Shown piece by piece: positions 57,198 to 63,653 of a stretch of 64,000 nt of DNA; the first letter of the stretch is position 1, and each line of letters opens with the position of its first letter. The stretch is from Candidatus Cloacimonetes bacterium HGW-Cloacimonetes-2. GTDB lineage: Bacteria; Cloacimonadota; Cloacimonadia; Cloacimonadales; Cloacimonadaceae. The stretch covers positions 186,001 to 250,000 of the forward strand of contig PHBP01000004.1 of assembly GCA_002842035.1 (NCBI GenBank), in the 5' to 3' direction. Both the position numbers and the translations under genes were made by a program. The notes under the pieces were generated by a model. The model searched no databases and was not told where the DNA came from. It worked only from the letters and a program-made list of their open reading frames with translations.

Positions 57198-57497
57198 ACT
57201 CTATACACTGATTCAAAGATCATAAAATACAAGACTCACTACTCTATGGGGGACAGATTTGGGATTTTCGGACAGATCTGGGGGATTTTTTTGGGGAGCA
57301 TTCATAAGCATCTGAATCCAATGGAGATCAAATCTGTGTATCGTTTTATGAGCCCATAGAAAATAATTGACAAGATTTCAAGAGGATATTTTTTAGAGAC
57401 TGTCAGATTTTATGTAAGCTGGTGCTGCTGCGGAGGCACTCTATCGGTGGTTTGACATTGATCGGAGTCATACTACAGCTCACCAAAAGGGGTGAAT
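57198..57497 (+). promoter_or_regulatory. Upstream region of the cas operon
   Basis: About 300 bases without a gene; no trace of cas3 was found. Two near-direct repeats GGACAGATTTGGG and GGACAGATCTGGGG lie at about 57250-57285. TTGACA at 57367-57372 could be a -35 element, although no good -10 follows at normal spacing. AAGGGG precedes the cas8e start. Confidence 0.35.
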
Positions 57498-58853
57498 ATG
57501 ATGTACAACCTGTTGGAACAGCCGTGGCTTTCCGTAATATATAACAACGGTGTCGCGGCAAGAATCAGCCTCATTGAGGCACTAAGCAAGGCTCATCAAT
57601 TACAAATTGCCTACCCTAATCCTATGGATAGGATTGCTGTCTTCAGGTTTATTCTGGCAATGAGCCTTTGGTGTAAACAAAAGACCGGAGACCCAATCAA
57701 AGACAGAATACCTCCACGCTGGTTTTCGTACCTTGCAGACCAGAAGCCTATGTTTGAACTATATGGGGACGACAAGAGGTTCATGCAAAGCAGAGGATTG
57801 ATACGCCTTAGGCCGGTTACAGAGCTATTCCACGAAGTACCAACCGGTAACAATGCATGGCACTTCCACCACAGCCGCGACTATGGCGATGGTGTGTGCC
57901 TTCACTGTATCGTAAATGGTATTCTTAGGCTACCAGTATTTTCTGTGAGTGGATTGCCGGATCTCAAATCTGGTATTAATGGCAGTCCCCCAATCTATTG
58001 CGTAAACTGGCCGGATAATCTCCTTGAAGCCCTTATACAAAACTGGCCATCCGAAGCCAATCTCGGTGCGCCAAACTGGGTCTATCAATATCAGTTCTCC
58101 CCTAGCGATTCAGTCCCACTGCTTGCAGGATTAACTGTACCGGCTCGGCTGCTATTCTTGAATGACCCCGTTGAAAGCAAAGAAGCCTGCTCCGCTTGTG
58201 GAGAGAAGCCGGGCCATCTGGTCTATTCTTGTCTGTATGAGTCTGCTGGCATTCTGGAAAATCAGAGCTGGAAAGATCCTTTTGCAGTCTATAAAGATGA
58301 CAGAGCTTTAAAGGCGTCAAACATTGTTGGAACTGGAAAGCTCGCATTTGACATGCGATATAGAGGGCTGCTGAGTACTATACTAAAGGATATGAGCTTC
58401 GAGCAATCCAGATCAATCCTGATAGTGGGCTTTGCTGTTGATAAAGCCAAATATGTGGACATCTGGGAAAAGACACTGCAAATTGAACCGCTAGCTATTA
58501 ACCCTGAGATTCTCGAGATACTCGAACATTGGAATGACTCAGTGAAGTTTACACTCAATCACAAATCCTTGAATAGGTTCAAGAATTTTAAAGCGAGTCT
58601 GGCATCTGATTTAGGACCTCAGACTGAAGCTATTTTCTATAAGAAGCTCAAAGCAGCTCTGCGCAGCAATGGGCTTGTCTGGGATGATCTATCCGATTCA
58701 AACCAGCTAGCTACACGCATCATATCCAAAGCTATGCTGCCGGGAATAAGCTCCAAACTCAGTCACGAGAGGTTTTTCATTAGGTCATCCATTCCAAAAG
58801 TACAGCAATCCAAGCAGAAGAAAGGAGGAAATGCTGATGAGCAGCAATCTTAG
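57498..58853 (+). CDS. cas8e: Type I-E CRISPR Cascade large subunit Cas8e (Cse1/CasA)
   Basis: A protein of about 451 residues that recognises the PAM and starts R-loop formation in type I-E. It begins MMYNLLEQPWLSVIYNNG and has RPVTELFHEVPTGNNAWHFHH (as in Cse1) and two CxxC pairs, CLHC and CSAC, at the usual zinc-binding positions. It is slightly shorter than the E. coli protein (about 500). ATG at 57498 or 57501 is preceded by AAGGGG; a GTG at 57492 is also in frame. It opens the operon; in most I-E loci cas3 would lie directly before it, but here there is only intergenic sequence. Confidence 0.92.
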   Translation: MMYNLLEQPWLSVIYNNGVAARISLIEALSKAHQLQIAYPNPMDRIAVFRFILAMSLWCKQKTGDPIKDRIPPRWFSYLADQKPMFELYGDDKRFMQSRGLIRLRPVTELFHEVPTGNNAWHFHHSRDYGDGVCLHCIVNGILRLPVFSVSGLPDLKSGINGSPPIYCVNWPDNLLEALIQNWPSEANLGAPNWVYQYQFSPSDSVPLLAGLTVPARLLFLNDPVESKEACSACGEKPGHLVYSCLYESAGILENQSWKDPFAVYKDDRALKASNIVGTGKLAFDMRYRGLLSTILKDMSFEQSRSILIVGFAVDKAKYVDIWEKTLQIEPLAINPEILEILEHWNDSVKFTLNHKSLNRFKNFKASLASDLGPQTEAIFYKKLKAALRSNGLVWDDLSDSNQLATRIISKAMLPGISSKLSHERFFIRSSIPKVQQSKQKKGGNADEQQS

Positions 58854-59349
58854 TAATGAATACATCCAACGGCTAACTATGCTAAAAGACGGCGAATTAT
58901 CTGTATTACGCAATCTTCAATATAAACAGCTGGATACTGGGCTTAGTGGATTCGACCTTTTTACTGCCCTTTGGTGGCCGCTACGAGAAAAAGGAAAACA
59001 TGCTCCGCGTAGAGAGGCTGCCTGGCTCATCGCAAAATTGTATGCAGCACGGAAAATGCAGCATAAATCCGATCAAAAACTGTCCATCTTGCTGGGTATG
59101 ATCTATCACAAGCTAATCCACAAAGACCAGAGAAAGGCAGATCAGGTACGAGCACTGAACGACAAACTGCTTAGCTTGCCTATCTACGCAATAGAACCTA
59201 CTCTGAACCAGTGTCTTGATCTCATCAAGAGAGAATTTGATGCTCTGGATTGGGTCAGGCTCTTGGATACAATATCTGCATGGGAATTGCCCAGTATTAG
59301 AGAACGCTGGGCTCAAGAATTCAACCAACAATATTACAAAAACTCGTGA
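58837..59349 (+). CDS. cse2: Type I-E Cascade small subunit Cse2 (Cas11e/CasB)
   Basis: A 170-residue, largely helical subunit that stabilises the displaced DNA strand; two copies line the belly of Cascade. Recognisable segments are FDLFTALWWPLREKGKHAPRREAAWLIAKLYA and the C-terminal WVRLLDTISAWE. The ATG at 58837 has AGGAGG eight bases upstream; an ATG at 58831 is too close to that site. The start overlaps the end of cas8e by 17 bases. Confidence 0.9.
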   Translation: MSSNLSNEYIQRLTMLKDGELSVLRNLQYKQLDTGLSGFDLFTALWWPLREKGKHAPRREAAWLIAKLYAARKMQHKSDQKLSILLGMIYHKLIHKDQRKADQVRALNDKLLSLPIYAIEPTLNQCLDLIKREFDALDWVRLLDTISAWELPSIRERWAQEFNQQYYKNS

Positions 59350-59359
59350 GGTAAGAGAA

Positions 59360-60478
59360 ATGAAAAGAACCCTTATTGAAATCCACATGATCCAAAACCA
59401 CTGCCCTTCAAACCTGAATCGTGATGATTTGGGCGCACCGAAAACTTGTTACTTCGGTGGAGTCCTGCGCTCCCGCATCTCCAGCCAATGTATCAAACGT
59501 AGCATCCGCACTTCTGATGATTTCGCTGATCTTCTTGGTGGAATCCGTACCAGACGTTTGGCAGAACAGATACAGGGGCAGCTCCAAGGCAGGGATATCA
59601 TCAAAAGAGCCAAAGATGTTCTTGCCAAATGCGGCATCAAATCAGGAGCCAAGAGCGCATCATCCGATATGTTGGTCTATACCACTAAGAATGCTATCAA
59701 AGCAATGGCAGATCTACTCAAGGATGATACGCTGAGTATTGACGATCTCAAAGAACAATTCGCAGGCTTGATCGAAAAAGATGTAAAGGTCCCAGATATG
59801 GCTCTTTGCGGAAGAATGCTCGAAACCGGAGAAATCAAGAACACTACGGTCGAGGCTGCTCTCCAAACTGCTCATGCCATCTCAACCCATGAAGCTATTC
59901 CTGAGGTTGATTATTATGTGGCTGTTGATGATATCAAAGGTGAAGACGCTGGGGCAGGATATCTGGATGAAGCAATCTACTCCTCGTCATGCTTCTATAA
60001 GTACTTCAGCATCGATCTTGAGCAGCTAGTTCACAATCTTGGCGGAGATGAGAAATTGGCTGCAAAAACTATCGGAGCTTTCATTTACGCATCAGCCCGC
60101 ACTAATCCCAGCGGTAAGCAAAATAGCTATGGAGCTCATAACTATCCCGAGGGGATTTTGGTTGAAATCAAGGATCGCCCATTTAACTATGCCAATGCCT
60201 TCGTCAAACCAGTAAGCCCAGTCAAAGACTCTGATCTCGTCACTCAAAGCATCGGACAACTTGCCAATTATATAAATGATGTCAATGTAGGCTATGGCTC
60301 AGTCGAGACTAAGCAATTGTGGTTTTCTCCGAATGGTAGGCACCCGCTTCAAACAGCCAAAGGTGATCAGCTAGGTGAGCTCGTAATCACGCTTGATGAT
60401 CTGGTAGAGAAGGTAGTCGGAATGACAGGTCACAATTGGCAGGATGTCCAAAACATCAAGGTAATCGAGGAGGCCTGA
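59360..60478 (+). CDS. cas7e: Type I-E Cascade backbone subunit Cas7e (Cse4/CasC)
   Basis: A 372-residue RAMP protein that forms the six-copy backbone along the crRNA spacer. It opens MKRTLIEIHMIQNHCPSNLNRDD and contains FGGVLRSRISSQCIKRSIR (the SSQ-KR segment typical of CasC) and FIYASARTNPSGKQNSYGAHN. Length is close to the family norm (about 360). GAGGTAAGAG precedes the ATG; the longer open frame to 59216 lies inside cse2. Confidence 0.95.
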   Translation: MKRTLIEIHMIQNHCPSNLNRDDLGAPKTCYFGGVLRSRISSQCIKRSIRTSDDFADLLGGIRTRRLAEQIQGQLQGRDIIKRAKDVLAKCGIKSGAKSASSDMLVYTTKNAIKAMADLLKDDTLSIDDLKEQFAGLIEKDVKVPDMALCGRMLETGEIKNTTVEAALQTAHAISTHEAIPEVDYYVAVDDIKGEDAGAGYLDEAIYSSSCFYKYFSIDLEQLVHNLGGDEKLAAKTIGAFIYASARTNPSGKQNSYGAHNYPEGILVEIKDRPFNYANAFVKPVSPVKDSDLVTQSIGQLANYINDVNVGYGSVETKQLWFSPNGRHPLQTAKGDQLGELVITLDDLVEKVVGMTGHNWQDVQNIKVIEEA

Positions 60479-60479
60479 T

Positions 60480-61631
60480 ATGGCCGCCAACACAATATTC
60501 CTCAGACTTGAAGGTCCACTCCAATCCTGGGGTGCTAGTAGCTCACGTCTTTCTGTCAGGCGAACCGATAATTTCCCGGGAAAGTCTGCTGTGGCAGGTT
60601 TGATTTGTTCCGCTTTGGGAGTGAGCAGAGAGGCAGCCTCGGATCTTTGGCTCCCCGAAATAGCAAGCCTGGCAATGGGGGTTCGCATCGATAGACCCGG
60701 GGTCAGGTGGTGGGATTATCATACAGTGGGGGCCGGGATGAGAGTCCCAATAGCTGATTATGATGCCGATAAATTAAATCCAGATAAGGGATTTATCACA
60801 GAATCTGAAGCCAGAGAGAATATCAAGGCAAAACCCGGAGCTGTGCTCTCCCGAAGAGAATATCTTTGTGATGCAAGTTTCTTGGTAGCTTTACAAGGAG
60901 CACCCGACAGGCTGGATTTGATCTGGAGAGCTCTCCTGGAACCTCATTGGCAGCTCTTTCTCGGCAGAAAATCCTGCAGCCCCTCCAGACCAATCACCGA
61001 ACATTCTCCGGGTGAGTATCCAAATCTCCTCACAGCTCTTTCATCTGTGCCATTGAGTACACCTGCTGTATATGAACTCCCAGATGAGGTGGAATGCTGG
61101 ATTGATTGGCAAGATAGGCAATCAACCGCCCCAAGCTCTGCAGAGATAGTGTATGATGTAGCAAAGAGCTTTGCTCCTCATTCATATCTTCCGCGTTTTA
61201 TCGTACCCTACATGATAGCTGTCGAAAGCTTGAAAACTGATCATCGTGGATATTCTATTGCCCGGTGGGCTCCTAAGCGATCCTCAGCGGCTTACGATAG
61301 TACGCAGTGGAAGATTATAAGAGCTCACAGATTGATCTTGGACAACAAATCCTGTATCCTCTGCAAATCACCTGCCACAACAGTGCAACATATCAGTTAT
61401 GCCAATGCCGGAGGCAATGAGAAACCTGAAGAACTTGCCTCTCTATGCCGGCTATGTCATGATGCTGCTACTATGCTGGAGTATGGTGCAGGGATGGGTA
61501 TCAACCGCATCGATCCGAGTGATCCAAAGTGGAGGCAGAAACTCCTCGAAAAACGTGCTGAGATTGTTCGCTTCCGTTCTGGAATGAAACGCAGTATTAT
61601 AATGGGAATGAAACCTGATGAGGAGGACTAA
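60480..61631 (+). CDS. cas5e: Cas5e fused to a C-terminal HNH nuclease domain
   Basis: A 383-residue protein; ordinary Cas5e (CasD) is about 225. Residues 1-240 are Cas5e: FLRLEGPLQSWGASSS, RRTDNFPGKSAVAGLICSALG and VLSRREYLCDASFLVAL; this part caps the 5' handle of the crRNA. After a linker (about 240-280), residues 280-370 form an HNH nuclease: CILC (C292, C295), a candidate catalytic His304 in TVQHISY, GGNEKPEELASLCRLCHDA with C323, C326 and His327. The four Cys would hold a structural zinc. The domain would place a DNA nuclease on Cascade itself. No frameshift is needed, and cas6e overlaps the stop by one base. The only alternative is a chance readthrough fusion, which the intact motif argues against. 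Confidence 0.93.
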   Translation: MAANTIFLRLEGPLQSWGASSSRLSVRRTDNFPGKSAVAGLICSALGVSREAASDLWLPEIASLAMGVRIDRPGVRWWDYHTVGAGMRVPIADYDADKLNPDKGFITESEARENIKAKPGAVLSRREYLCDASFLVALQGAPDRLDLIWRALLEPHWQLFLGRKSCSPSRPITEHSPGEYPNLLTALSSVPLSTPAVYELPDEVECWIDWQDRQSTAPSSAEIVYDVAKSFAPHSYLPRFIVPYMIAVESLKTDHRGYSIARWAPKRSSAAYDSTQWKIIRAHRLILDNKSCILCKSPATTVQHISYANAGGNEKPEELASLCRLCHDAATMLEYGAGMGINRIDPSDPKWRQKLLEKRAEIVRFRSGMKRSIIMGMKPDEED

Positions 61632-62407
61632 TGTACTTATCCCAATTGCTCGTTGACACCGGTGGCAATCCGGATCGTCCCAGACCCGGAAGGATGTGGA
61701 TAGGCAACGCCTACAATATACATCGCAGGCTGTCAATGGCCTTCCCTCGATATGAAACACTGCTAAATGATCCAGACAGCCTGAAGCCTTTCAATCCTGC
61801 GATGTTGGAAGATCGTCCATTTCTCTTCAGGCTTGATAACAACGTTAGTGATGATGGACAAAGAGCCATAATCATAGTGCAATCTTCTCTAAAGCCAAAT
61901 TGGGATTGGTGCTTCCACAACGCACCGGATTTTCTGGCAGCTCCCCCCCAGATGAAAAATTACGATCCTGATTATCAATCAGGAGAGACCCTGCGCTATA
62001 GAATCAAGCTCAATCCCACAATAAAAAGTAGCAGCCAAAAAAGCATAAATGCCATAACTGGTGAAGCTGGAAAAAATAGCAAGAGATTAGCTCTTACCTG
62101 GGATAAGGATTCCGATCCGGAGACAGCAATCAACATCTGGTTTGCCAAAAAAGCCGAATCTTCCGGTTTTAAGCTTATCCAAAGCAAGCTGATCCAATTA
62201 TCCTGGGTTTATGGCAGTAAGATGAAAGCTGCTGATGAGCAGAATGAAGCAGGAAAAGTCCAACACCACAAAATGAAATTCCGCTCTGCTCTCTTGGAGG
62301 GCATTCTCGAAGTCACAGATCCATCCTCTTTTAACAGGTGCATCTGTGATGGCATCGGCAGTGCCAAGAGCATGGGCTTTGGTCTCCTTACGGTATTGAG
62401 GTTATGA
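61631..62407 (+). CDS. cas6e: Type I-E crRNA endoribonuclease Cas6e (Cse3/CasE)
   Basis: A 258-residue RAMP ribonuclease that cuts the repeat hairpin and stays bound to the crRNA 3' end. The likely catalytic His is H31 in YNIHRRLSMAFP (equivalent to the conserved His of CasE), and the glycine-rich GIGSAKSMGFGLLTVL is at the C-terminus. It is longer than E. coli CasE (199), with extra sequence in the middle (about 110-175). ATG overlaps the cas5e stop by one base (TAATG). Confidence 0.93.
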   Translation: MYLSQLLVDTGGNPDRPRPGRMWIGNAYNIHRRLSMAFPRYETLLNDPDSLKPFNPAMLEDRPFLFRLDNNVSDDGQRAIIIVQSSLKPNWDWCFHNAPDFLAAPPQMKNYDPDYQSGETLRYRIKLNPTIKSSSQKSINAITGEAGKNSKRLALTWDKDSDPETAINIWFAKKAESSGFKLIQSKLIQLSWVYGSKMKAADEQNEAGKVQHHKMKFRSALLEGILEVTDPSSFNRCICDGIGSAKSMGFGLLTVLRL

Positions 62408-62408
62408 T

Positions 62409-63368
62409 ATGGCTTATGGAAACTTACATAAACTCCCCAAGATCAGCGATCGCCTTAGCTATCTCTATATTGAACACGCCAGAATAGATAAAGAAGATCA
62501 GGCAATTGCTATCAATAGCGACTTTGGCGGTACTCCTGTGCCCTGTGCCGGACTCGCTTTGTTGATGTTAGGACCTGGTGTATCAATCACGCATGCTGCG
62601 ATTACTACCCTGGCAGAATGTGGATGCTTGGTTGCCTGGGTCGGTGAATTTGGTGTTCGATTCTATGCTGCCGGTACTGGAACTACCAGATCAGCCAATA
62701 ATATTATGAAGCAAGCCAAGTATTGGACGGATGAAAGAATGCATATGAAAGTAGTACGGATGATGTATGAAATGAGATTTCCCGATAGACTCGATCCCAA
62801 TCTGAGCCTGCAGCAGATCCGTGGCAAAGAAGGTGTAAGAGTCAGGGATACCTATGCACGTCTGTCATCTCAGTACGGCGTCAAAATGGAGAAAAGGGAG
62901 TATGACAGACAAGCTTGGAAAAATGCCGATCCTATTAACAAAGCTCTGTCTGTAGCCAATTCCTGCTTGTACGGAATTTGTCATGCTGCAATTGTTGCGG
63001 CTGGTTACTCCCCGGCGTTGGGATTTGTCCATATAGGTAAACAGCTCTCCTTTGTCTATGATGTTGCTGATCTCTACAAGATGGAAACAACTGTCCCAGC
63101 CGCTTTCAAGACCGTTGCAGCCGGAGAGGCGGATTTGGAAAGAAGATGCAGAACTGCCTGCAGAGATGAATTTCACCAAACCAATATCCTCAAGAAGATC
63201 GTCTCAGATATTCATAAACTATTTGATCAGGATCTCTCAGAATTTGATGAAGTAGATGACTATGCTGTGGATCAATCAGCTCCGGGCTATCTCTGGAACC
63301 CACAGGGCGAAAGCTCCGCTGGTGGTATTATGTATGCTGGTACAGATCAGGAGGACAAAAAATGGTAG
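62409..63368 (+). CDS. cas1e: Type I-E CRISPR integrase Cas1e
   Basis: A 319-residue integrase that inserts new spacers together with Cas2. The metal-binding residues are Glu in IRGKEGVRVRDTYARL, His in LGFVHIGKQLSF and Asp in VYDVADLYK. The N-terminus LPKISDRLSYLYIEHARI is typical of Cas1e. The C-terminal tail is slightly longer than in E. coli. It follows cas6e by one base and overlaps cas2e by seven bases. Confidence 0.96.
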   Translation: MAYGNLHKLPKISDRLSYLYIEHARIDKEDQAIAINSDFGGTPVPCAGLALLMLGPGVSITHAAITTLAECGCLVAWVGEFGVRFYAAGTGTTRSANNIMKQAKYWTDERMHMKVVRMMYEMRFPDRLDPNLSLQQIRGKEGVRVRDTYARLSSQYGVKMEKREYDRQAWKNADPINKALSVANSCLYGICHAAIVAAGYSPALGFVHIGKQLSFVYDVADLYKMETTVPAAFKTVAAGEADLERRCRTACRDEFHQTNILKKIVSDIHKLFDQDLSEFDEVDDYAVDQSAPGYLWNPQGESSAGGIMYAGTDQEDKKW

Positions 63369-63643
63369 CTATTGTAATGGAAAGTGTTCCGATCGGTCTC
63401 AGAGGTGAACTCACTCGCTGGATGCTTGAGCTCAAGAGCGGTGTCTTTCTGGGAACTCTTTCCGCAAGAGTAAGAGAACAACTCTGGGCAAAGATCTGCG
63501 CAGAATCGAGAGGAGGTCCATGCATAATTGTATGGTCAGCACAGTGCGAACAGGGGTTCAAAATGCAATTCTGGGGTGCTCCCTCCAGAGTACCCACAAA
63601 TTGGGAGGGACTTCAGCTACTTACAAAGCCCTCAAAACCTTAA
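63362..63643 (+). CDS. cas2e: Type I-E CRISPR adaptation protein Cas2e
   Basis: A 93-residue protein forming the Cas1-Cas2 capture complex. The opening MVAIVMESVPIGLRGELTRWMLELKSGVFLG and PCIIVWSAQCEQGFKMQFWG match the Cas2e family (94 residues in E. coli). The stop codon lies 10 bases before the first repeat of the array. Confidence 0.96.
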   Translation: MVAIVMESVPIGLRGELTRWMLELKSGVFLGTLSARVREQLWAKICAESRGGPCIIVWSAQCEQGFKMQFWGAPSRVPTNWEGLQLLTKPSKP

Positions 63644-63653
63644 CTGATCAAGT

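Follow-up and report, generated by a model that had tools for sequence, protein, structure and literature searches.

The Cas5-HNH variant of type I-E CRISPR-Cas was first described in 2023, when crRNA-guided dsDNA cleavage was demonstrated (PMC10910872), and its formal name is I-E2 (PMC12669027). This rare kind of system was found, tested and solved structurally in a related bacterium in 2023-2024. The characterised relative cleaves by itself, both in vitro and in cells, and its activity is abolished by mutating the HNH catalytic residues (PMC10910872). Its cuts are PAM-distal, falling 3-4 bp beyond the protospacer on the target strand and 8 bp beyond it on the non-target strand and leaving 3' overhangs (PMC10910872), because the HNH domain extends into the interior of the complex, where it is held between Cas6 and Cas11 (PMC11822464). 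Collateral ssDNA cutting has also been reported for the characterised I-E2 (PMC10910872; PMC11822464). Cascades that do without Cas3 and introduce a defined double-strand break are of value as leads for genome editing, and they exemplify the convergence of a class 1 system on the chemistry of a single cut.

The locus considered here lies in a 64,000-nucleotide stretch of DNA (contig PHBP01000004.1, positions 186001-250000; the whole of it is called the window below) from an assembly of 2.5 Mb that is 99.55% complete. Judged by its relatives and by the Cas5 tree, the system belongs to Candidatus Cloacimonadota. What this bacterium carries is almost certainly an intact CRISPR-Cas system of type I-E2 (Cas5-HNH), cutting without Cas3. 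The Cas5-HNH protein is a new ortholog of a named and structurally solved variant and by itself brings no new mechanism; what the locus offers is a further complete, intact I-E2 ortholog from a near-complete genome.

The operon and the Cas5-HNH fusion

The operon is intact, spans 57492-63643 and has the order cas8e-cas11-cas7-cas5HNH-cas6-cas1-cas2. Its features, together with the array that follows, are:

57492..58853, + strand: cas8e (Cse1/CasA), 453 aa; PF09481 84 bits; best PDB match 8yb6_J, E=5e-85
58831..59349, + strand: cas11 (Cse2/CasB), small subunit, 172 aa; sole PDB match 8yb6_K, E=3e-35
59357..60478, + strand: cas7e (Cse4/CasC), backbone subunit, 373 aa; TIGR01869 264 bits; best PDB match 8yb6_D, E=3e-135
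60480..61631, + strand: cas5e-HNH fusion gene, 383 aa, ATG start
60492..61172, + strand: Cas5e domain (residues 5-231) of the fusion; TIGR01868 and PF09704 matches
61308..61580, + strand: HNH domain region (about residues 277-367) of the fusion; PF01844, invariant residues, beta-beta-alpha order
61631..62407, + strand: cas6e (Cse3/CasE), crRNA-processing endoribonuclease, 258 aa; TIGR01907 73 bits; best PDB match 8yb6_B, E=7e-84
62409..63368, + strand: cas1e integrase; TIGR03638 378 bits
63362..63643, + strand: cas2e; TIGR01873 69 bits
63654..64000, running on past the window to about 66548, + strand: CRISPR array with the 29-nt repeat GTATTCCCCACACACGTGGGGGTGAACCG

All of the Cascade subunits in the window match type I-E models, giving an I-E backbone with five Cascade genes, and in PDB searches with Cas8, Cas11, Cas7 and Cas6 the chains of 8yb6 far outscored any matches to canonical I-E chains. 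The cas8e product is expected to be the large subunit and PAM reader. The genome holds one copy of cas1, and an Rfam search of the locus matched no family.

The fusion protein is about 159 residues longer than E. coli CasD (224 aa), in agreement with an earlier sequence-only reading, which had put Cas5e at some 160 residues over its usual length. TIGR01868 matched residues 5-231 at 141.7 bits (cut-off 68.95) in a profile search, and PF09704 matched the Cas5e part at 127 bits in a Pfam search. The HNH pattern that the same reading had proposed for the extension is found where it had been placed, with zinc cysteines C292, C295, C323 and C326 and catalytic-type histidines H304 and H327; these six residues are invariant in 58/58 Cas5-HNH loci, so the pattern is not due to chance. 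When residues 234-383 were searched alone against Pfam, PF01844 (HNH) scored 22.6 against a gathering score of 21.4, while the HNH part of an IscB model gave a weak match to the fusion (24 bits, cut-off 175). An AlphaFold model (mean pLDDT 78.7) has the beta-beta-alpha order typical of HNH domains, with strands at 301-304 and 319-322 and a helix at 324-337, and Foldseek returned Cas5-HNH Cascade entries as its top PDB fold matches. In a phmmer search of the PDB the best match was 8yb6 (E=5e-123, residues 3-382, approximately 50% identity), and the solved Cas5-HNH Cascade chains 8yb6, 8yha, 8zlu and 9jxs all aligned with the fusion over its full length; the chain of 9jxs, a dsDNA-bound structure, has Ala at the position equivalent to H327. 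The profile search, the model and the alignment with reported proteins thus bear out the suggestion that this is a type I-E Cascade with an HNH-Cas5e fusion of the reported kind, namely variant I-E2 (PMC12669027).

The middle Asn position of the HNH motif is occupied by Glu in the window's protein; across the 58 loci it is Asp in 44, Glu in 13 and Ala in 1. The loss of this Asn would suit a Cascade that binds and silences its target, with the HNH domain serving as a non-catalytic scaffold. Such a role is extremely improbable given that both histidines and all four cysteines are invariant, and given that the characterised I-E2 protein carries Asp at this position yet is active, its catalytic mutants being inactive (PMC10910872).

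Distribution of Cas5-HNH loci and absence of Cas3

In a set of 125 Cloacimonadota genomes, Cas5-HNH was found in five, one of which has two copies, and type I-E cas2 occurred only in these five genomes and in one other (G097), whose Cas5e is plain and lacks HNH. A scan of 84,980 species genomes yielded 57 loci, 56 of them with HNH; the exception, L083, is an ordinary I-E locus with cas3 in place and was left out of the count. With a locus from a viral collection (L084) and that of the window, the total is 58 Cas5-HNH loci, which is enough for comparing PAMs, cut sites and cas3 loss across the family. The I-E2 variant is spread over more than twelve phyla, its hosts belonging, by record titles and tree labels, to Cloacimonadota, Planctomycetota, Nitrospirota, Nitrospinota, Chloroflexota, Armatimonadota, Myxococcota, Thermodesulfobacteriota, Hydrogenedentota, Acidobacteriota, Sumerlaeota, Pseudomonadota, Kapabacteria and Bacillota and including one Thermoplasmata archaeon; since these hosts are metagenome bins, individual phylum assignments may be mistaken. 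The genes keep the same order wherever the contig is long enough. In plasmid and phage collections, searches turned up ordinary Cas5e-type matches but no Cas5-HNH of full length. A tree of the Cas5 domain that included eight canonical Cas5e rows, whose branches are long, required two changes of the HNH label.

The Cas5-HNH operon of L084 lies on an 8.3 kb IMG/VR contig, so a virus may carry the system, or the contig may be chromosomal sequence that was misclassified. A complete locus (L043) lies on an 800-kb contig binned as the Thermoplasmata archaeon, with Chloroflexota loci as its nearest neighbours in the Cas5 tree; transfer to an archaeon and a binning error are both possible. One genome (G013) has two I-E2 loci, L022 and L023, which are 38-57% alike in Cas8, Cas11, Cas7 and the Cas5 body and 78-96% alike from the HNH domain through Cas6, Cas1 and Cas2, a contrast in sequence identity which suggests that recombination took place inside cas5-HNH.

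Profile searches (cas3_core and cas3_HD) found no Cas3 over the cut-off in the window's locus or anywhere in its genome. The six leading candidates in that genome were rejected, being RecG, a DEAD-box RNA helicase, Mfd, a DExH helicase, PriA and an HDIG protein. Likewise, none of the five Cloacimonadota genomes with Cas5-HNH had a cas3 over the cut-off; in G097, cas3 adjoins cas8. An intact cas3 was found in none of the surveyed Cas5-HNH loci: throughout the family the gene has disappeared from the locus, with short fragments left beside three to four loci.

It could be proposed that the system is an ordinary I-E one in which the HNH domain has an accessory role and target degradation falls to an unlinked Cas3. 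A Cas3 over the cut-off is indeed encoded elsewhere in the genome in 15 of 48 Cas5-HNH hosts outside Cloacimonadota, so that Cas3 might contribute in trans in those hosts, but not in the window's genome. The lack of Cas3 in this near-complete genome and in the remaining Cas5-HNH genomes of Cloacimonadota, the family-wide loss of cas3 from the locus and the ability of the characterised relative to cut without Cas3 (PMC10910872) leave this proposal with next to no chance of being correct.

The cas3 fragments adjoin cas8, lying upstream of it, in L057 (6445-6792), L051 (6458-6886), L059 (5078-5368) and perhaps L048 (157-321), and three of them retain the beginning of the HD domain. Such remnants beside Cas5-HNH loci were noted in the discovery paper too (PMC10910872).

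Predicted target cleavage and the CRISPR array

Cleavage by an I-E2 complex that works without Cas3 can be outlined for the window's system by analogy with its relative. The array transcript would be cut by Cas6 into crRNAs with 32-nt spacers, and on each crRNA a Cascade ring would be formed by Cas8, Cas11, Cas7, Cas5-HNH and Cas6. Once the PAM had been read by Cas8, the crRNA would open an R-loop along the target, and a full R-loop would cause Cas6 and the HNH domain to shift, opening a channel next to Cas11. The HNH domain would then be expected to cut on the PAM-distal side, 3-4 bp past the protospacer on the target strand and 8 bp past it on the non-target strand, with 3' overhangs. The Cas3 helicase-nuclease would take no part, and new spacers would be added by Cas1 and Cas2. 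Both R-loop gating and PAM-distal double-strand cutting are inferred here from the relative. In outline, the sequence-only reading was probably right that the effector cuts its target itself, which fits the absence of Cas3 and the activity of the relative.

The same reading had placed the cut on the PAM-proximal side. In Cascades, the body of Cas5 touches the 5' handle of the crRNA, close to the PAM, and a nuclease domain fused to Cas5 might on that account cut there. The cuts of the relative, however, were mapped PAM-distally (PMC10910872), with the HNH domain between Cas6 and Cas11 (PMC11822464), and since the window's fusion, Cas6 and Cas11 are homologous to those of the relative, the fusion over its full length, its HNH domain probably lies in the same place. 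A near-PAM cut is therefore very improbable. The details of PAM-distal cutting may nonetheless vary. The Cas5-HNH of one surveyed locus (L025, in genome G017), which is almost the same in sequence as the solved protein and lies on the same contig as the UBA4175 record (L030), is 49% identical to that of the window, and Cas8 of the G017 locus is 38% identical to the window's. Because Cas8 and Cas11 have diverged from the characterised locus, the PAM and the cut offsets may differ.

Read beyond the window, the whole array (L013) comprises 48 repeats of 29 nt and 47 spacers of 31-32 nt. It is clean, the last repeat being the only clearly degenerate one. Just 10 bp (63644-63653) separate the cas2 stop from the array. 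Across 45 I-E2 loci the median of this distance is 16 bp (range 0-97), compared with 67, 83, 104 and 848 bp in ordinary I-E controls, which number four loci only. In 4/6 Cloacimonadota loci, TGATCAAGT precedes the first repeat. With the array starting so near the cas2 stop, the CRISPR leader may overlap cas2 in many I-E2 loci. Synonymous-codon conservation in cas2 shows a weak excess at codons 80-84 (z about 2-3.4), with codons 10 and 21 higher singly. It is conceivable, although we think it unlikely, that the window represents a diverged I-E2 lineage with its own PAM and cut geometry, in which the leader lies inside the 3' end of cas2 and coding sequence is thus needed for spacer acquisition and for expression of the array.

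The 47 spacers, concatenated and compared with the 125 Cloacimonadota genomes (best two candidates per genome), gave no convincing protospacers, and three single spacers used as exact patterns found none in IMG/VR. For spacer 6, both G017 and G048 contain a similar sequence in a TolQ/ExbB/MotA-like gene, 7-8 mismatches away; this target was rejected, as about ten such chance matches are expected by a rough estimate and no copy of spacer 6 within 3 mismatches was present in its own genome outside the array.

Comparison with known systems

The I-E2 Cascade of Candidatus Cloacimonetes (Altae-Tran et al. 2023; PDB 8yb6, 8yha, 8zlu, 8zp7, 9jxs) has the same fusion architecture as the window's system and shares with it five Cascade genes, the absence of Cas3, the active-site residues and 32-nt spacers. 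The two are separate orthologs, with approximately 50% identity in Cas5-HNH and less in Cas8. The canonical I-E Cascade-Cas3 system of E. coli has homologues of Cas8e, Cas11, Cas7, Cas5e, Cas6e, Cas1e and Cas2e in common with the window, as well as gene order, a 29-nt repeat and a 61-nt period, but it includes Cas3, and its Cas5, at 224 aa, has no HNH domain. The Cas3 helicase-nuclease that marks the canonical type is missing from the window's locus and genome. In the type I-F4 Cas8-HNH system of Selenomonas, an HNH domain likewise stands in for Cas3 inside Cascade; its HNH is described as independently acquired (PMC10910872; PMC12669027) and is carried on Cas8f in an I-F backbone, whereas that of the window sits on Cas5e. 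The HNH domains of IscB and Cas9 are weakly similar in motif, but these are single-protein effectors with RuvC and without a Cascade. With an HNH domain at the C-terminus of Cas5e, a five-gene Cascade, no Cas3, an intact HNH site and an I-E array with 32-nt spacers, the locus shares these features with I-E2.
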